Below are positions 1-37,877 of a stretch of 37,877 bases of DNA, one piece after another. This stretch comes from Cytophagales bacterium. Lineage in GTDB: Bacteria; Bacteroidota; Bacteroidia; Cytophagales; Spirosomataceae. A model generated the notes under the pieces. It saw only the letters and a list, made by a program, of their open reading frames with translations. It searched no databases and was not told the origin of the DNA. Each line of letters starts with the position of its first letter. The stretch's first letter is position 1. The DNA is taken from positions 1-37,877 of the forward strand of contig JAAFJE010000033.1 of assembly GCA_013298025.1 (NCBI GenBank), written 5' to 3'. The translations under genes and the position numbers were made by a program.

Positions 1-121
1 TTTCAGCAGGCCCTTGTTTTTCATTTTCTATCGAAGGGTCATTTTGACCCTTCGATGAAAAAGTAGTTTCAGCAGGCCCTTGTTTTTCATTTTCTATCGA
101 AGGGTCATTTTGACCCTTCGA
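1..121 (-). repeat. 66-bp palindrome-bearing tandem repeats in parB, left part of the array
   Basis: Two complete palindromes sit at 31-55 and 97-121, exactly 66 bp apart. Each has 11-bp arms, TCGAAGGGTCA and TGACCCTTCGA, around three bases. The frame is 22 codons per unit, read on the minus strand as SKGQNDPS plus a linker rich in Glu, Gln and Asn. The array continues at 37528-37877. After the second palindrome the sequence changes abruptly into unique parB DNA. Confidence 0.95.
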
Positions 122-604
122 TGAAAGGTGCTTTAAATTTTCTGCTTTATCCGATTTTTCGTTATTGTAGCGTAAGCCACGAAAATAAGAAATCTGCGAT
201 AAAGAAAGATTCCTACGGCCTAATTGAAGATTAATCATATAATCTTTCGCTTCTTTTATGGAAGGGAAAGAGAGCATATATACCTCAAAGTTTAAGTTAT
301 GTCTTTTACAAATAGCGTGGCGGTTATGTCCATCGATAAGGACATAAACAATATCGTCGGGGTCTTGCGATGCTAAACCTATTTGTTGTTTGGCTACTTG
401 CCAAAGTTGAATAGGCGTTTGGCAACCATGCTGTAAAATATTACTTTCTAGTTGTTCGGATTCTTCTGGTGAAAGTGCAGGAATAAGGTTTTTCAACTCA
501 GGCAGAATAATGATATTTTGACGGATGGCATCCGCACTTAAAATATTACTAGACAAAGCTTGCTTTGTTTTTGAGGCAAGTATTTTTTTTATATCCGTTT
601 TCAT
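1..604 (-). CDS. parB: ParB-like partition protein, N-terminal part (gene continues at 37877)
   Basis: The start ATG at 604-602 directly abuts the parA stop codon (TAG then ATG), so the two genes are translationally linked. The protein begins MKTDIKKILASKTKQAL and holds a ParB N-terminal domain. The motif IDGHNRHAIC (about residues 93-102) matches the nucleotide-binding GHNR/GERR box, and LGRRNLSLSQISYFRGLRY follows at about 125-145. After NEKSDKAENLKH the frame enters 22-residue repeats with core SKGQNDPS and runs off the window. The C-terminal helix-turn-helix half is at the other end (37134-37877). In known ParB systems this protein binds a centromere, loads as a CTP-dependent clamp and stimulates the ParA ATPase. 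That role is inferred from the family; the frame and motifs are read directly. Confidence 0.88.
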   Translation of the reverse strand, partial: MKTDIKKILASKTKQALSSNILSADAIRQNIIILPELKNLIPALSPEESEQLESNILQHGCQTPIQLWQVAKQQIGLASQDPDDIVYVLIDGHNRHAICKRHNLNFEVYMLSFPSIKEAKDYMINLQLGRRNLSLSQISYFRGLRYNNEKSDKAENLKHLSSKGQNDPSIENEKQGPAETTFSSKGQNDPSIENEKQGPAE

Positions 605-1561
605 CTATTTAACAATTTGAAGATACGCAATGTATTCATCACAAAAATCCCAATAACATTTGGCGGCATCCGAATTTCCTGAGAATTTAGAGATTGAACT
701 TTGAGCTATTTGGGATTTTTGAAAGTCAATCAAATGCCGTATTTCAGCATTAAATATTTTAATATTTTTCACTTCTTCTTTTACATACGCCTTAATGCCA
801 TCGTGAACGCTATTTTTCTTGACCATCGTAAACACTACTCCATCAATCTGTAAAGAAGCGTTCAAGTCATGACGGACTTCCATGATTTTACCCCAAATAG
901 AATTTAGCCCTTTTACAGCCGACATCTCAGGCAATAACGGAATAATACAACTTGTTGAAGCAGCCATAGCCGAAAGCGTTAGCTTGTTGAGAGAAGGTGG
1001 GCAATCAATAATGATGTAGTCGTATTGGTTTAAGAGATGGCTAATGCGGTTTTTCAAACGAAATTCGCCTCCTGTCAATTCATGAAATCTCATTTCCACA
1101 TTCGCCAAGTCTATATCAGAAGGCGATAAATCAAGATTGGGAATAATGTTTAGTACGGGAAAAGGCACATTATTAATTAACGAATCAGCTACTTGCACCT
1201 CTGGCGAATCAACGCCTAATATCTGGCTTAGGTTTCCTTGTGGGTCTAAGTCTATCAATAAAATTTTAAATCCTTTATTGGCCAAGGCTTCGCCCAAAGA
1301 AGCTGTTGTAGTAGTTTTGCCTACTCCTCCTTTGTGATTTACGACAGATATGACTCTTGCATTTTGGTAGAGCAATGCCGAGTAACCATATTTTGAAAGA
1401 ATGGGCAGTAATAAATCGAGATGTTTCTCAGGAATCGCCCTATTTTCATTTAATGCTCTTGTGATTGTCTGACGAGGAATACCCGCTTCTTTTTCTAAAG
1501 AACTTACAGATAATGCTGGATTGTGTCTAATAAATTTTAAAGCAAGTTCGTTCGTTATCAT
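605..1561 (-). CDS. parA: ParA partition ATPase with N-terminal helix-turn-helix
   Basis: This 318-residue protein is a ParA/MinD-type ATPase that drives plasmid segregation by patterning on the nucleoid. Residues 1-60 form a DNA-binding head, with PALSVSSLEKEAGIPRQTIT reading as a helix-turn-helix. Such heads usually repress their own par operon. The deviant Walker A KGGVGKTTT is at residues 78-86, LLIDLDPQGNLS is at 101-112, and the IIIDCPPS Walker B/switch segment is near 185. The ATG is preceded by an AAGGAAAGG purine stretch. On the minus strand a TATTTTTG box (TAnnTTTG type) lies at 1596-1589, without a clear upstream partner. The stop codon touches the start of parB. Family assignment is firm; autoregulation is inferred. 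Confidence 0.95.
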   Translation of the reverse strand: MITNELALKFIRHNPALSVSSLEKEAGIPRQTITRALNENRAIPEKHLDLLLPILSKYGYSALLYQNARVISVVNHKGGVGKTTTTASLGEALANKGFKILLIDLDPQGNLSQILGVDSPEVQVADSLINNVPFPVLNIIPNLDLSPSDIDLANVEMRFHELTGGEFRLKNRISHLLNQYDYIIIDCPPSLNKLTLSAMAASTSCIIPLLPEMSAVKGLNSIWGKIMEVRHDLNASLQIDGVVFTMVKKNSVHDGIKAYVKEEVKNIKIFNAEIRHLIDFQKSQIAQSSISKFSGNSDAAKCYWDFCDEYIAYLQIVK

Positions 1562-17928: not shown

Positions 17929-20900
17929 TTACTTTTGAATAAACACTTTGACAGGATTCCACTCCGCTACTTGTAAGAAGAAAATGCCATTTTCTATCGA
18001 ATCAGGCAAGGTAATTTCAAGTACATTTGCGTTGTTGTGGCTCACACTGGTATCAAGTATTTTATTACCACTCAATCCATAAAGTTTGATAGACACTCGC
18101 TCCTGCGAACTTAGCAAGGAAGGCATTCTCACATACAACTTTTCGCCTTTCGATGGGTTAGGATACACGATTACTTCTGGTGTAAAGTCTATTGATTCTG
18201 TCATCAGTGGGTCAATTCTCAATCCTGAGATGGGTTCATGCCCAAAAATCAAGGAGTCTTTGTAATAGACCGTCACGTTCTCATTCAACAACAATGCTCC
18301 TCCTGTGTGGTAAGCATAAGAGTAATCGTTGCTTTGTGAAAAATTAGCCCAATTTCCTTTCGCTATTCTGAAATTGATATTACCCGAACCTGAAAGCGGA
18401 TAACAGATGCCTGCTGATGCTTGAAAGCCTATTTCAAAATAGCTATCGCTTCCTTGAAGAACAGGACTCACACCTACAAATGAGCCATACACCTTCGTTG
18501 ACCCCATTTTTACATAATCGAAATAAGCATTTAGACTTGTAGCTCCATCTTTGGTAAACCAATATCGAACTTTCAAATCCTTGTAATTCACAGGCATATT
18601 TCCTTCATTTTGAATACTCATGAACGTGTGAATGGTGTTGGAATTGGCGGGAGTCTTAGCATCGGTATATACTTTGAGACTATAGATTTTACTCTCGTTT
18701 TCAGGCTCTTTACCCCAAATCAGTTTGCCATTTCTATAGACTGTCATTTTGCTAGATGTCACATAATTCGTATTGGCTAACCAAGAGTAATCGTTGCTTT
18801 CAGATAGAGAAGTCCAATCGGTATTGGCAATTCGAGTTTGGATAACACCAGAGTTGGCGTTTGCATTGAGCTGTCCAGCATTCGCAAGGAAGCTATATTC
18901 AACATATCCTAAAGCTCCGTTTTTAGGGTTTTCGAGTGATGTATAATTCGCTTTAATATTTGAATTACCCAGCGGAGAATAGTCAATGAAAGTATTAATA
19001 CCAGCATAGTTTTCAGGCGAGAACCAATAGCGAACAGTAATTTCGCTCAAAGGAATAGCTATAGCGGTTTGATTAACCAAAGAGAAATTAGGTTTGATTT
19101 GGTTGTTGGTGGTATTATTATCACCATTCTGATACTGGAGAATAATGGCATTGCTAATAGCCAAGGTTTGTGAAACACTCGTAGCAGGATTATAAACCCC
19201 ATTGCCATTTTGAGAAGCCGTAATGGTTGTTGTTCCAGCGCCAACAATATGTATTTTACCATCAATAATCGTGGCTACGGTCGTATCTGAACTAGCAAGA
19301 GAAACGGCTAAACCAGAGCTTGATGTTGCCCCTGCTGAGAAATCTGCGTCATCGACATATTTGTTAGGCAAAGTAGCAAACGAAATAGTTTGGTCTAACT
19401 TACTTACAGTCAAGGTTTGCGAAATACTCGTAGCAGGATTATAAACTCCATTGCCATTTTGCGAAGCCGTAATGGTTGTTGTGCCTGCTCCAACGATATG
19501 GATTTTACCATCAACAATTGTGGCTACGGTCGTATCTGAACTAGCAAGTGAAACGGCTAAACCAGAGCTTGACGTTGCCCCTGCTGAGAAATCTGCGTCA
19601 TCGACATATTTATTAGGCAAAGTAGCAAACGAAATAGTTTGGTCTAACTTACTCACAGTCAAGGTTTGTGATACACTCGTGGCAGGATTATAAACTCCAT
19701 TGCCATTTTGAGAAGCCGTAATGGTTGTTGTGCCTGCTCCAACGATATGGATTTTACCATCAATAATCGTGGCTACGGTCGTATCTGAACTAGCAAGAGA
19801 AACAACCAAACCAGAGTTTGATGTAGCATTTGCGGAGAAATCTGTATCACCAACATATTTGTTAGACAAAGTACTAAACGAAATGGTTTGGTCTAACTTA
19901 CTCACAGTCAAGGCTTGTGAAACACTCGTGGCAGGATTATAAACTCCATTCCCATTTTGAGAAGCCGTAATGGTTGTTGTTCCTGCTCCAACGATATGGA
20001 TTTTACCATCAATAATCGTGGCTACGGTCGTATCTGAACTAGCAAGAGAAACAACCAAACCAGAGCTTGATGTAGCATTTGCGGAGAAATCTGCGTCATC
20101 GACATATTTGTTAGACAAAGTACTAAACGAAATAGTTTGGTCTAACTTACTCACAGTCAAGATTTGTGATACACTCGTGGCAGGATTATAAACTCCATTG
20201 CCATTTTGCGAAGCCGTAATGGTTGTTGTTCCAGCCCCAACGATATGTATTTTACCATCAACAATCGTGGCTACGGTCGTGTCTGAACTAGCAAGAGAAA
20301 TCGCTAAACCTGAGCTTGATGTAGCATTTGCGGAGAAATTCTCAGAGATAACACTTTTCGTAGGAATGCTAAAGAAGGTAATATGTTGGTCTTGTTTGTT
20401 AAGAATTTCTACCGTAACAGATGTACTAGCAACAGATGTACACCCTGCATTATTAGTACACGTTGCATAAATTGTATGAACACCAACGTCACTAACTTTT
20501 AGCGTTGTATCGGTAGAGCCATCAGACCATTTTATCGTTCCATTACAACCAGTAGCATATAACGTTACGGTATTAGGAGCATAGACTGTAGTATTACCAC
20601 CAATAATTGTAGGAGGAGTAACTGTACCTACAATTTCTATTGTTTTAGTATCAGTACTTTCACCATCTGTATAAGTATAAACTACCGTGTGCGTACCTAC
20701 GCTTAATTGTGCAGGAGATAAAACAGAAGAGGCAACCCCGTCTATTGTAAATGTACCGCCAGCAGGAGAGGCTGCGAGCGTTACATCACTAGCATTTTTA
20801 CAATAAAAAGAATTAAGATTTGTAATACTTACTGGAATCGTGAATATATTTCCTAATGTGAAAGGAGAAAAACTACTAACATTTTGATACGTAACGCTGT

Positions 20901-32416: not shown

Positions 32417-32432
32417 ACATTTCTGACCCTTT

Positions 32433-32477
32433 ATAAAACAAAAATCCTGTGTTTGCAACACAGGATTTTTGTTTTAT
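32433..32477 (+). terminator. Rho-independent terminator after the ECF sigma gene
   Basis: 21-bp arms starting ATAAAACAAAAATCCTGTG enclose a 3-base loop and finish in GGATTTTTGTTTTAT. The GC-rich core CCTGTGTT/AACACAGG followed by T-runs fits a terminator for the sigma gene. It also shields the origin from transcription. Confidence 0.92.
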
Positions 32478-32505
32478 ATCTTTTGCTCATCGTAATTTTC
32501 TTGGC

Positions 32506-32552
32506 TTAGAGCCTATTCATGGAGAGCAAAGCTCTCCATGAATAGGCTCTAA
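32506..32552. repeat. 47-bp perfect hairpin palindrome at the edge of the origin
   Basis: 22-bp arms, beginning TTAGAGCCTATTCATGG, flank the loop AAA with no mismatch. It is followed at once by a DnaA-box-like sequence and the origin. No T-run follows, so it is not an ordinary terminator. Possible roles are a single-strand initiation or assembly site, a mobile palindromic unit or a resolution site. Confidence 0.7.
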
Positions 32553-32767
32553 TTATCCCCAACTTTAGTACTTATCAACAGTCATAATTCTTGCTATTTT
32601 TTAACTCTAACTACGAGAAAAACCCCGTCGCGGAAAATTTAATTTTTTAAAAAATAAAAAAAAATAAAAAACAACTAATATTAGTAGCTATTTACTTATT
32701 AATAACTATTATACTATTAGGAAATTTTTCTTTCAAAAATACCTGATTTTCAGACACTTACAAAAGT

Positions 32768-32905
32768 TAATTACGAGAAAAACCCCGTCTAACTACGAGA
32801 AAAACCCCGTTAATTACGAGAAAAACCCCGTCTAACTACGAGAAAAACCCCGTTAACTACGAGAAAAACCCCGTTAACTACGAGAAAAACCCCGTCAATT
32901 ACGAG
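32768..32905. repeat. Iteron cluster (six 21-22 bp direct repeats plus a partial)
   Basis: Six copies of TAACTACGAGAAAAACCCCG or its TAATTACGAG variant start at 21-22 bp intervals (TACGAG blocks at about 32772, 32794, 32815, 32837, 32858 and 32879). A seventh copy keeps only ATTACGAG (32898-32905). The two-helical-turn spacing places all Rep monomers on one face. An eighth copy stands alone near 32608-32629. Confidence 0.95.
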
Positions 32906-32927
32906 AGGTTATTTTTTTTCTCGTAAT
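32898..32927. promoter_or_regulatory. Inverted half-iterons: probable Rep autorepression operator
   Basis: ATTACGAG and CTCGTAAT form a perfect inverted pair 14 bp apart, the second 21 bp before the rep ATG. The half-site equals the first part of the iteron. In pSC101/pPS10-type plasmids such inverted half-iterons are bound by Rep dimers to repress rep. A TATTTTTG box at 32935-32942 lies right next to the start codon. Confidence 0.7.
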
Positions 32928-32947: not shown

Positions 32948-34120
32948 ATGAAACAGCAAAAGAAACCTATTATTGTAGAATCTGACATAACGGTTGCCCA
33001 ACATAATGAACTGGTCAAGGCAAGATTCAATATGTCTTTGATGGAAACCCGGCTATTTATTGCTCTATTGGGGCGTATCAACAAAGGTGATACAGATTTT
33101 TCTTTGTGCAGAATACCTATTTCAGAAATATCTTCTAATGTTGATGGGGGAAAAGCGTATCAGGACGTAAAAGAAGCCGTTGTGAAGTTATCAAGTAAAG
33201 TCATTACGGTTGAAACGGTTGACCAAAACGGAAAACGTGAAATTATCAGCGACCCACTGATGGCTACTTGTCGCTACAAAGATGGTTCTGGTTTTATCGT
33301 TGCTCAACTAAACAGTTTTGTGAAGCCTTACCTTTTGCAATTGAAAGGCAATTTCACCGTAGCCGAAATCAAAGTGTTGCTTCAATTACGAAGTTATTAT
33401 TCGTATCGAATCTATTGGTTGCTAAAATCTTTTTCGTACAACTCTAATACTTTCAGTGTAAAAGTAGAAGATTTAAAAACCATGATGGGTATTGAAGGAC
33501 AATATCCTAATTTTTATGATTTTAAAAAATGGGTATTGTTAGTATCGCAGCGAGAGCTAACGCAAACCGATATGGCTTTTTCTTTTAACGAAATCAAAGA
33601 AGGGCGTTCAGTAAAACAACTAGAGTTTATCATCAACAGGCAGTTATCTTTACCTATGGAAGAAGAGTTGAATTTGCCCAATTATCTTCAAAGTTTGTTA
33701 TCTGAAATTGGTGTGAGCTTAAATTCCATGCAAGAGATTAGCGAAATGCTCAATAGCGGAAAGATAGACCAAGACTATATTTATTTTGTTATCAAAGAAT
33801 TAAAAAATAAAAAATCGAAGGGTAGTATTAAATCGCTTGCGGGAGCTATTTACTCGGCCATTATCAAACAACATTTGATGGAAGCTTATCTTAGCGAAAA
33901 AAACCAACATATTTATAAGCAACCTGTTACGGCCAAAAAGAAAGAAGAAAGTAAACCTGTGGTGAAATTAAAACTCAAAGACCAAGAAGAAGGTTTTGCC
34001 GCCATGTTGAAAAGAAAAGTAGCTCCAGCAAAAGACTTTACTACTTACTTGGCTTCTTTGATGGCAGATGGATTTAGAATTGTACTCATAAACGGAGAAG
34101 AATATTTAATAAAAGAGTAG
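32948..34120 (+). CDS. Rep_3-family plasmid replication initiator
   Basis: The 390-residue protein opens with [31 protein letters not shown], the signature of the Rep_3 (RepB/RepE-like) N-terminal winged helix. The second winged helix (about 135-235) includes [48 protein letters not shown] and [27 protein letters not shown]. The C-terminal 150 residues are Lys-rich and less conserved. It binds the iterons immediately upstream to open the origin and, as a dimer, probably represses its own promoter. The stop is 8 bp before a truncated parA, so an intact rep-parA pair once existed here. Confidence 0.95.
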
Positions 34121-35768: not shown

Positions 35769-36125
35769 TTACGATAACAACACTTCAGCAGGAATCCCTA
35801 ACTCTTGATGAAATATTTTAACAAGTTTTAAAGTAAGAGGCTTCTTTTTGTTAAGTAAAGCCGAAACATAACTTTTGCTTCCAATCCACAAAGCTAAATC
35901 CTTGTTTAATAATCCTTTTTCTTCCATTTTTAGTTTTACGGCCTCAATAGGGTCTGGAGTAGGTATGGGGTAATGCGCATCTTCGTATGCTTTAATTAAT
36001 AACAGAGCAATTTGTAATTGTTCTCCTTCTTGGCTATTAAATTCTGGAGCTAAATCAAACTGAGTATCTACCCATTCCAACATTGCTTCATATTCATCAT
36101 CCGTCTTAATTGGTCTTAAATTCAT
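35769..36125 (-). CDS. higA: HigA-like antitoxin with helix-turn-helix
   Basis: The 118-residue protein has an acidic N-terminal part (MNLRPIKTDDEYEAMLEWVDTQFD) and a C-terminal Xre-type HTH. The HTH runs DPIEAVKLKMEEKGLLNKDLALWIGSKSYVSALLNKKKPLTLKLVKIFHQELGIPAEVLL, about residues 58-117. This is the layout of HigA antitoxins of the COG5499 type. It follows higB on the same strand after 140 bp, the usual toxin-first order of higBA modules. It should bind and block HigB and repress the shared promoter. On a plasmid it would serve maintenance by post-segregational killing (inference). Confidence 0.88.
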   Translation of the reverse strand: MNLRPIKTDDEYEAMLEWVDTQFDLAPEFNSQEGEQLQIALLLIKAYEDAHYPIPTPDPIEAVKLKMEEKGLLNKDLALWIGSKSYVSALLNKKKPLTLKLVKIFHQELGIPAEVLLS

Positions 36126-36265
36126 ATATATGTCTTGTTTAATAATTTAATATCAACGATAATCTATTTTAAGGTAAATATTAATGTTTCAACCCTTGTT
36201 CTATTGAACACTTTATACCTAACTAATAAATACTATTTTAAAAATTAGTTACGAATTCAATTTAT

Positions 36266-36574
36266 TTACTTTTTGTAGCTGACGTTGGTAACATCAATAT
36301 TGTCGTATTCAGTATGCGTTCCAAACCACTTTATCTGAATCGCTTTATAAGTAAATACAATTCTAACGACAAGACGAAAGTGGTTGCCCATAATATTAAA
36401 AACTACTCTATCATCACCAACCAAACTAGCATTACCATAGGCACTTTTTAATTCTTGAAAATTCTTGAAATCAGCTTGAATAAATTCATAATACCATTCC
36501 AAGAGAGCATTAGATGCTTTAGGATATTTTTTACAATAAGCTAATAATGTCTTTCTTGTAATAATGTTAAACAT
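36266..36574 (-). CDS. higB: HigB-type mRNA interferase toxin
   Basis: The 102-residue protein matches the HigB_toxin family of Bacteroidota. Its blocks are KTLLAYCKKYPKASNALLEWYYEFIQADFKNFQELKSAYGNASLVGDDRVVFNIMGNHFRLVVRI and then KAIQIKWFGTHTEYDNID. The basic and aromatic surface around NHFRLVV and WFGTHTEY is characteristic. Members cleave mRNA in association with the ribosome. It is transcribed from a well-formed Bacteroidota promoter overlapped by two direct repeats (36591-36639) that probably bind HigA. The length is normal and the frame intact. Confidence 0.9.
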   Translation of the reverse strand: MFNIITRKTLLAYCKKYPKASNALLEWYYEFIQADFKNFQELKSAYGNASLVGDDRVVFNIMGNHFRLVVRIVFTYKAIQIKWFGTHTEYDNIDVTNVSYKK

Positions 36575-37133: not shown

Positions 37134-37877
37134 CTATGACATAGCAGCCAAGGTTTGTTGGGCCAAGGCTATCATCTGTTCTAAATCGGCTCTGCTATTT
37201 GTCTTTACGAATTTCTTACTGATAGTCATTAGCTCAACTGCTTTTTCTTGGATACCAGACATAATTTTAGCTGTATTGGCGGTTTCGCTTGTGTTGGTAT
37301 CAACAAGGGCTATTAATTGCTGCATTCCCGAAACTGGTTTTTCCAAATCTTGCATTTTAGCCAATTTCTGAATCAATCCTTTGTCAATTTTCTCCTTACC
37401 GCTTAAAATATTATTCCGAAATTCGAGGTCTAATTTTTCCAGACCCTTGGCAAACTCGGCATCTCTTTTAATGGTTTTGGGACTTACCTTATACTCTTTT
37501 GAAAGTCGTTCGGCAGTTGAAAGTCCCGAAGGGTCATTTTGACCCTTCGATAAAAAAGTAGTTTCAGCAAGCCCTTGTTTTTCATTTTCTGTCGAAGGGT
37601 CATTTTGACCCTTCGATAAAAAAGTAGTTTCAACAGACCCTTGTTTTTCATTTTCTGTCGAAGGGTCATTTTGACCCTTCGATAAAAAAGTAGTTTCAGC
37701 AGGCCCTTGTTTTTCATTTTCTATCGAAGGGTCATTTTGACCCTTCGATGAAAAAGTAGTTTCAGCAGGCCCTTGTTTTTCATTTTCTATCGAAGGGTCA
37801 TTTTGACCCTTCGATGAAAAAGTAGTTTCAGCAGGCCCTTGTTTTTCATTTTCTATCGAAGGGTCATTTTGACCCTT
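37134..37877 (-). CDS. parB: ParB-like partition protein, C-terminal part (continues from position 1)
   Basis: Read on the minus strand from 37877, the frame passes through six units of the SKGQNDPS repeat. It then goes directly into GLSTAERLSKEYKVSPKTIKRDAEFAKGLEKL, the ParB helix-turn-helix. A C-terminal helical region follows (RNNILSGKEKIDKGLIQKLAKMQ to LEQMIALAQQTLAAMS), ending at TAG 37136-37134. Added to the 604 bases at the left end, the gene is 1348 bases, which is not a multiple of three. Adding the 14 bases missing from the broken repeat gives 1362, or 453 codons plus stop. The repeats therefore form the linker between the nucleotide-binding domain and the HTH. Confidence 0.88.
   Translation of the reverse strand, partial: KGQNDPSIENEKQGPAETTFSSKGQNDPSIENEKQGPAETTFSSKGQNDPSIENEKQGPAETTFLSKGQNDPSTENEKQGSVETTFLSKGQNDPSTENEKQGLAETTFLSKGQNDPSGLSTAERLSKEYKVSPKTIKRDAEFAKGLEKLDLEFRNNILSGKEKIDKGLIQKLAKMQDLEKPVSGMQQLIALVDTNTSETANTAKIMSGIQEKAVELMTISKKFVKTNSRADLEQMIALAQQTLAAMS
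37528..37877 (-). repeat. 66-bp palindrome-bearing tandem repeats in parB, right part of the array
   Basis: Palindrome cores GAAGGGTCA-N3-TGACCCTTC begin at 37528, 37594, 37660, 37726, 37792 and 37858 (the last cut by the window end). With the two on the left there are eight. Substitutions between units fall outside the palindromes: TAA/TGA and CTG/CTA beside the arms, and CAGCAGGCC, CAGCAAGCC or CAACAGACC in mid-spacer. The copy at 37528 keeps 9-bp arms. Confidence 0.95.

Follow-up and report, generated by a model that had tools for sequence, protein, structure and literature searches.

Does this plasmid carry its centromere inside the gene for the protein that binds it? The question is raised by a 37,877-bp stretch of DNA (the window, meaning the whole stretch analysed), which is the entire contig G000:C27 of an assembly of 5.44 Mb in 53 contigs. 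Within a parB gene, a 25-bp palindrome, TCGAAGGGTCA-NNN-TGACCCTTCGA, with 11-bp arms around a 3-bp spacer, recurs with a period of 66 bp. The spacer of the window form is TTT (TCGAAGGGTCA-TTT-TGACCCTTCGA), and seven complete copies and one cut copy occur, in parB only. No match was found in 100 dinucleotide shuffles of the window. The gene lies on the minus strand and is interrupted by the contig ends, with its 5' part at 604..2 and its 3' part at 37877..37134. The relevant features are as follows.

31..55, unstranded: candidate parS palindrome, 11/11 arm pairs
97..121, unstranded: candidate parS palindrome, 11/11, first copy in the direction of translation
134..604, minus strand: parB 5' part, predicted N-terminal ParB-fold domain, residues 1-157 of the ORF at 2..604 (ORF; Foldseek of relative L006)
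605..1561, minus strand: parA, Walker ATPase with a 68-residue N-terminal extension (Pfam AAA_31, E 3e-49, residues 69-239)
32766..32906, unstranded: 21/43-bp direct repeats (GTTAACTACGAGAAAAACCCC), probable iterons, directly upstream of the Rep3 gene (repeat search)
32948..34120, plus strand: Rep3-type replication initiator (Pfam Rep3_N, E 3e-29; Rep3_C, E 6e-15)
37134..37877, minus strand: parB 3' part, spanning the repeat linker, the HTH and the C-terminal region; its ORF runs off the contig end (ORF; HTH block VSPKTIKRDA, L003)
37461..37484, minus strand: start of the parB recognition helix, SPKTIKRD (motif, L003; helix 200-213 of the L006 model; covariation with the site)
37526..37550, unstranded: candidate parS palindrome, 10/11, last copy ahead of the HTH
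37592..37616, unstranded: candidate parS palindrome, 11/11
37658..37682, unstranded: candidate parS palindrome, 11/11
37724..37748, unstranded: candidate parS palindrome, 11/11
37790..37814, unstranded: candidate parS palindrome, 11/11
37856..37877, unstranded: eighth palindrome copy, cut by the contig end, maybe the same as a copy at the contig start (52/118-base end overlap)

The final 118 bases of the contig, and also its final 52, are identical to its first bases. Because of this overlap the end copies may be identical DNA, and the true copy number is 6, 7 or at least 8. The preliminary description had counted at least eight copies plus two more at the contig start; the palindrome it described is confirmed, with its arms, its spacer of 3 bp, its recurrence every 66 bp and its place in the linker of parB, and the count gives way to this range. 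It had also held that the arms are invariant in the internal copies and that changes fall only in the spacers, which it took as a sign of selection on the DNA. However, the copy at 37526 has a substitution at its outermost arm base, and arms and spacers within the window array do not differ significantly in conservation (variable columns 1/25 vs 5/41, Fisher p = 0.40). The argument from within the array thus fails on the window alone, and selection on DNA finds its support among the homologues.

The contig is most likely a plasmid, because it carries a Rep3 initiator with upstream direct repeats together with a parA-parB pair. The rep-proximal iterons were considered as a centromere and rejected, as the 11-3-11 palindrome is absent there. 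The preliminary description had seen no other parS-like array in the window. A P1/F-like (type Ia) layout, with the centromere downstream of parB, does not describe the window, where 7/7 complete sites lie within parB. The contig also has a pair of perfect hairpins (32432-32478 and 32506-32552), each with a 3-nt loop and arms of 22 nt, located between an apparent sigma-factor ORF and the rep repeats; they are possibly terminators or a replication-related element. At 35769-36574, a HigB-type toxin gene (Pfam E 7e-27) and a neighbouring ORF, which matches HTH_3 below its cut-off, probably form a toxin-antitoxin pair. A 2216-residue ORF contains a 249-bp repeat in 4.7 copies (19162-20339), with units that are Ig-like by appearance.

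Sequence models are nearly silent on the parB gene. Pfam searches of both window parts returned no match at E <= 0.001, and an NCBIfam search of the 5' part and of the relative L006 returned none at 0.01 (the 3' part was outside this search). Among 68 relatives searched with Pfam at E <= 0.01, ParB_N matched 1/68 and HTH_11 24/68. Relatives in public plasmid records are mostly named 'hypothetical protein' or 'ParB N-terminal domain-containing'. A search of solved-structure sequences with a ParB profile gave one spurious match (E 0.059). Structure is more informative. L006, the ParB of pEMTOL04 from the water bacterium Emticicia oligotrophica and the closest complete plasmid relative, was predicted from an alignment that included 67 other relatives, with a mean pLDDT of 88. 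In Foldseek, all 23 matches of this model at E <= 0.001 were ParB, Noc, pNOB8-like ParB or the RK2 repressor co-complex, which we take to be KorB, and the probability was 1.00 for Noc/ParB/KorB. Query TM-scores were low (0.19-0.38), probably because the domains are placed differently. The modelled fold resembles nucleotide-bound ParB chains. A disordered stretch (residues 164-180) separates two well-predicted parts, and the midpoints of the L006 palindromes fall close to residues 161 and 180, at both edges of this stretch. As the first reading of the gene as parB proposed, the protein is, judged from the modelled relative, a ParB with a ParB fold followed by an HTH, despite the silence of Pfam and NCBIfam. 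The locus has the apparent makings of a type I ParABS system with an HTH-ParB, namely an adjoining gene for a ParA Walker ATPase, a ParB fold followed by an HTH, and a palindromic cis site matched to ParB. Recognition by a ParB sequence model is absent, and such recognition is a convenience and not part of the definition.

Relatives of the N-terminal part were found in 71/222 genomes of the family. The Emticicia aquatica relative, at 76% over the N-terminal part, was the only match among named genome contigs, where records very near the window may be missing. We listed a subset of the relatives, 145 distinct ParB-like ORFs from a family search, a genus search and plasmid records, and 119/145 could be parsed at both linker ends; the window gene, being in two halves, is not among the 119. 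A parA-like Walker-motif ORF lies upstream of parB in 116/119 loci. Of the ParAs found, 114/116 have an N-terminal extension (Walker motif beyond residue 45 of the ORF), and the window ParA has its domain from residue 69. In this trait the ParAs do agree with the P1/F-like (type Ia) layout. Such an extension also occurs in ParAs that bind operators.

Most relatives share a CA-NNN-TG core, and a site was scored as this core with at least 9/11 arm pairs, flanks being the fetched DNA, mostly 1 to 2.5 kb a side. The comparison of homologues at the same linker, proposed at the outset, revealed an 11-3-11 palindrome there in 67/119 genes, against a mean of 0.2 in dinucleotide shuffles. Flank sites were observed in 54 loci vs 2.5 in shuffles, and a linker or flank site in 105/119 vs 2.7. 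Of the parsed genes, 51 have linker sites and no flank sites, 38 have the reverse, 16 have both and 14 have neither; four of the 14 siteless loci carry weaker 8/11 sites. Many relatives in the same bacterial order share the arrangement. The 26/145 unparsed ORFs comprise six pieces (the two window-gene halves, L039, L115 and two of L026) and 20 full-length genes without TIxRD. Under the CA-NNN-TG rule, 19 of these 20 have no site and one has a weak site outside. Without that rule, 18/20 have an AA-NNN-TT palindrome of at least 10/11, which in L096 occurs as two linker copies at a 66-bp interval and in the other 17 lies at most 600 bp after parB; L126 and L135 have none in the linker or within 600 bp after parB. 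An order-wide set of 76 ORFs, 18 of them unparsed and near-duplicates included, was scored by a looser rule without shuffle control and serves for reading frames and the core switch only; its matches are inside in 27, outside only in 26 and absent in 5.

Several relatives are of interest in themselves. L026, a parB relative, retains the palindrome although a break at the linker divides the gene into two ORFs. A short-linker clade with the HTH SSRTIKRDG (L071, L084, L109, L112, L117, L127, L153 and others), found partly on chromosome-size contigs (L117, L127, L153), has CAAAGTGACA-type palindromes just downstream of parB. Another clade, with the helix TIKND (L067, L068, L070, L078, L080, L083, L085, L087, L091, L095, L098 and L105), has a conserved CATAAGTGCAA-NNN-TTGCACTTATG right after parB. 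L015 and L017 carry five-palindrome arrays (spacing 78-79 bp) that lie roughly 1.0-1.3 kb ahead of parB and hence, judged by the length of parA, upstream of that gene, together with one palindrome downstream and a 9/11 match in the linker; they are possibly intermediate between the layouts. In cyanobacteria, a ParB-like gene on a plasmid of Calothrix sp. PCC 7716 (L171, 2495-3604), located after an annotated DnaB helicase gene, encodes PNGKNFLS twice, 48 bp apart, in imperfect palindromes with an AA core. One on a Gloeothece verrucosa plasmid (L170, 1877-3724) has the linker repeat SGHFDH three times, also with imperfect palindromes. The linker-site layout may thus extend beyond Bacteroidota.

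Is the DNA under selection, or only the peptide? Peptides like KGQNDP or KGQNVP do recur in the linkers, and some linkers are not significant when recoded singly, so that the palindrome might be a codon by-product of a repeat peptide. Yet when the same peptides are recoded synonymously from pooled codon usage, only 2.6 genes acquire a near-perfect (10/11) linker palindrome, against 47/119 observed, and for 21/119 genes taken singly the test gives p <= 0.005. Palindrome density is 3.8 per kb in linkers vs 0.064 in the remaining parB. The arms differ by lineage and keep their complementarity (CATAAGTCCCA, CATAAAGGACA, CAAAGTGGACA, CGTGGTGGTCA, CATAATGCTCA, TCGAAGGGTCA), and a spacer flip between AAA and TTT turns Gln-Asn into His-Phe (QN to HF). 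All internal sites of the family set (118/118) share one reading phase, which could reflect common descent or a preferred peptide. Within the order-wide set that phase recurs in 24 genes, and nine, several of them close kin, use another that encodes EKDKMSS- or VDNLST-like peptides. The half-site CAAAGTGGACA is common to L243 and L009, which differ in frame. Conservation of the peptide in non-palindromic codons is therefore not the rule among homologues, given the 47/119 against 2.6 and the second frame in nine genes. That selection acts on the peptide alone is extremely unlikely, and a palindrome of fixed 11-3-11 geometry appears from these comparisons to be selected as DNA.

A palindrome selected as DNA might still be a mobile element. 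Rickettsia palindromic elements are palindromes tolerated within genes and scattered over many genes. An element of this kind, tolerated in coding sequence, could have entered parB and expanded there, and the in-frame position, the hydrophilic peptide and the tandem expansion would fit. The window palindrome differs from the Rickettsia elements in being confined to parB. At up to three mismatches, 7/7 places in the 5.4-Mb assembly are in this parB and none are spread across unrelated genes, and relatives share the position and differ in arms. The suggestion of a scattered mobile repeat has hardly any chance of being right. The exact inner pattern was matched in 4/222 of the relatives' genomes. 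In five complete plasmids (pEMTOL04, pEMTOL05, pRUNSL05 and two of Runella rosea), 10/11 sites with the CA-NNN-TG core occur in parB only. The window genome has three further parB relatives, two with their own arms (CATAAGGGTCA in C17, CGTGGTGGTCA in C6) and one, in C5, without a recognised site. The canonical chromosomal parS variant TGTTTCACGTGAAACA, the one searched for, was absent from the assembly at up to one mismatch.

If ParB reads the palindromes, the site should be matched to its recognition helix. We scored column-wise residue-base pairs with average-product correction. Across 102 loci and 4149 pairs, recognition-helix pairs rank 1, 2, 3 and 8. Among 66 loci with inside sites (4140 pairs), ranks 1, 3 and 4 are in the recognition helix, which makes up 8/460 columns; these top pairs are K18 with position 8, K21 with position 6 and N16 with position 9. 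In 36 outside-only loci the best helix pair ranks only 9. Helices with N before xKTI go with ..GA-CA in 11/11 cases, SPKTI and SAKTI with ..GT-CA in 4/4, and SEKTI is mixed. At the level of whole domains, partial Mantel tests did not single out the HTH, as N-terminal domain and ParA distances also correlate with the site. The core provides a further comparison. After misread rows were removed by eye, and with related genes treated as independent in the Fisher tests, the 27 genes in which Asn, Thr, Leu or Ser replaces the Arg of TIxRD have AA-NNN-TT in 21 cases, no site found in six and CA-NNN-TG in none, and Arg genes of the family set have CA as the best site in 79 and AA in one. The raw off-diagonal entries were two CA non-Arg and one AA Arg in the family set and six CA non-Arg in the order-wide set. 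The non-Arg CA rows are motif-search misreadings in which the printed motif is not the real helix, and the AA row with Arg (L106) reflects an AA match downstream of the gene, with a 9/11 CA site in the linker itself. Because loss of Arg pairs with the AA-NNN-TT core, this helix residue changes together with the innermost variable base. A candidate residue-to-base code emerges, with N199, K201, K204 and R205 of L006 set against site positions 9, 8, 6 and 10.

The helix covariation also bears on mRNA hairpins in the parB transcript as a control of ParB level or translation speed, an alternative raised at first sight of the array. In RNA, a stem of 11 bp closed by a 3-nt loop would be expected to be stable, every internal copy is transcribed, and G.T is the commonest mismatch in imperfect internal sites (14/67). 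However, no clear wobble preference exists, with G.T/T.G vs A.C/C.A at 20 vs 13 of 67 mismatches inside and 11 vs 11 of 62 outside. Sites also occur upstream of parA and downstream of parB, and they covary with the DNA-reading helix. Hairpins as the explanation are accordingly very unlikely.

Closely related loci differ in where the site lies. Among genes without a linker site, 38/52 have one in the parAB flanks. The linker of L012 contains two CATAATGCTCA palindromes. Those of L011, L013 and L014, which have the same HTH, contain none, and these loci carry arrays of three, nine and six downstream of parB. The four form a clade (SH-aLRT 99). On a tree of 105 loci, with weak support for 33/116 internal branches and with some long rows, the inside or outside state changes at least eight times. 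Internal sites are not always the sole sites, as 16 loci also have outside ones. Within these 16 loci the two kinds of site have matching half-sites: their mean distance is 0.5, compared with 3.83 when loci are paired at random, and none of 2000 random pairings gave a mean below 2.5. The exception is L145, where they differ by five. The spacing between linker copies is a multiple of 3 (42-90 bp), and that of the intergenic L013 array is 47 bp.

We consider it about 90% probable that the palindromes are the plasmid centromere (parS), bound by the ParB that they help to encode and arranged in tandem in the code for a disordered linker between ParB fold and HTH. We read them as parS because they form a selected 11-3-11 DNA palindrome, are matched to the recognition helix and are replaced in sisters by intergenic sites beside parAB. 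The proposal of a gene carrying its own binding sites as a linker thus draws support from the homologue comparison, the helix covariation and the location in parB only. Sites bound by ParB might instead be operators that autoregulate parAB without a role in partition, and repression from distant sites is described for the ParB-type protein KorB (PMC11790492). Against this, the internal sites are, in window coordinates, some 1.4 kb away from the start of the parAB operon, the five relatives' plasmids show no other candidate centromere of this kind, and arrays reach nine copies. A pure operator role is therefore improbable to a high degree, while an additional operator role is possible.

As a centromere, each palindrome would be bound by a ParB dimer through its two HTHs. 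ParB would load at the site, probably by forming a CTP clamp like other ParB proteins, and might then spread across parB and parA, with ParA moving the ParB-DNA complex and hence the plasmid. Feedback on parAB expression is plausible, because with sites about 1.4 kb into the operon spreading ParB would cover its own genes. In-frame duplication of a site with its spacer (66 bp, or 22 residues, here) would add centromere copies and lengthen the linker together. Across this bacterial order, the centromere could be a working part of the partition-protein gene, such that site, reader and linker evolve as a unit, copy number sets both centromere strength and linker length, and the fused ParB-parS pair is inseparable. 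We offer this idea tentatively and regard it as somewhat doubtful in its full form. If true, the inseparability of cognate ParB and parS would allow new plasmid specificities and incompatibility groups to arise by changing one gene. With these sites, a large group of Bacteroidota plasmids gains probable centromeres; the ParBs of these plasmids are mostly recorded as hypothetical proteins. Because closely related lineages differ in whether the site is within the gene or next to it, these plasmids are suited to testing the gains and costs of an intragenic centromere, changes in partition specificity and dual selection on a protein linker and a binding site.

Several known systems resemble this arrangement in part, as described in the available portions of the sources. 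The F plasmid centromere sopC consists of twelve 43-bp repeats with a 16-bp inverted repeat in each (PMC9178275). It is likewise a tandem array with one inverted repeat per unit bound by a ParB-type protein, but lies downstream of the protein genes and not within one (PMC2346475). Coding sequences are also a familiar location for parS. Nine of ten parS sites in Pseudomonas aeruginosa are predicted in coding sequence, and a putative parS of Mycobacterium bovis is located in parA. The Bacillus subtilis chromosome has ten 16-bp parS sites, eight of them bound by Spo0J in vivo (PMC2346475). One of the ten, parS-359, lies inside the parB coding sequence as the palindromes do here, whereas the available text describes no tandem repeat of it (PMC4442127, PMC4333373). 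The gene parT of Streptomyces SCP2 holds its own parS, an 18-bp inverted repeat, by ChIP-seq and binding (PMC12260392). The SCP2 ParA-ParT-parS system is thus alike in that the gene of the partition protein carries its own parS, but parT has one site, ParT is without a CTPase domain, and the available text describes no tandem array or repeat linker (PMC12260392). In Streptomyces SCP1, each parB of the pairs parB1/parS1 and parB2/parS2 contains an internal cognate parS, which was recoded without protein change for complementation, and specificity between the coresident systems is strict (PMC13245405). These parB genes share the internal cognate site with our locus and differ in having sites of 13 and 19 bp, one named per gene (PMC13245405). 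Intragenic parS is therefore already established in B. subtilis, SCP2 parT and SCP1 parB1/parB2. In the open-licence literature we found neither this Bacteroidota ParB family described nor any account of tandem arrays in coding sequence or of centromere repeats serving as a linker. What is new, as far as the literature was searched, are tandem coding arrays in a dedicated linker that recur across a ParB family mostly missed by Pfam.
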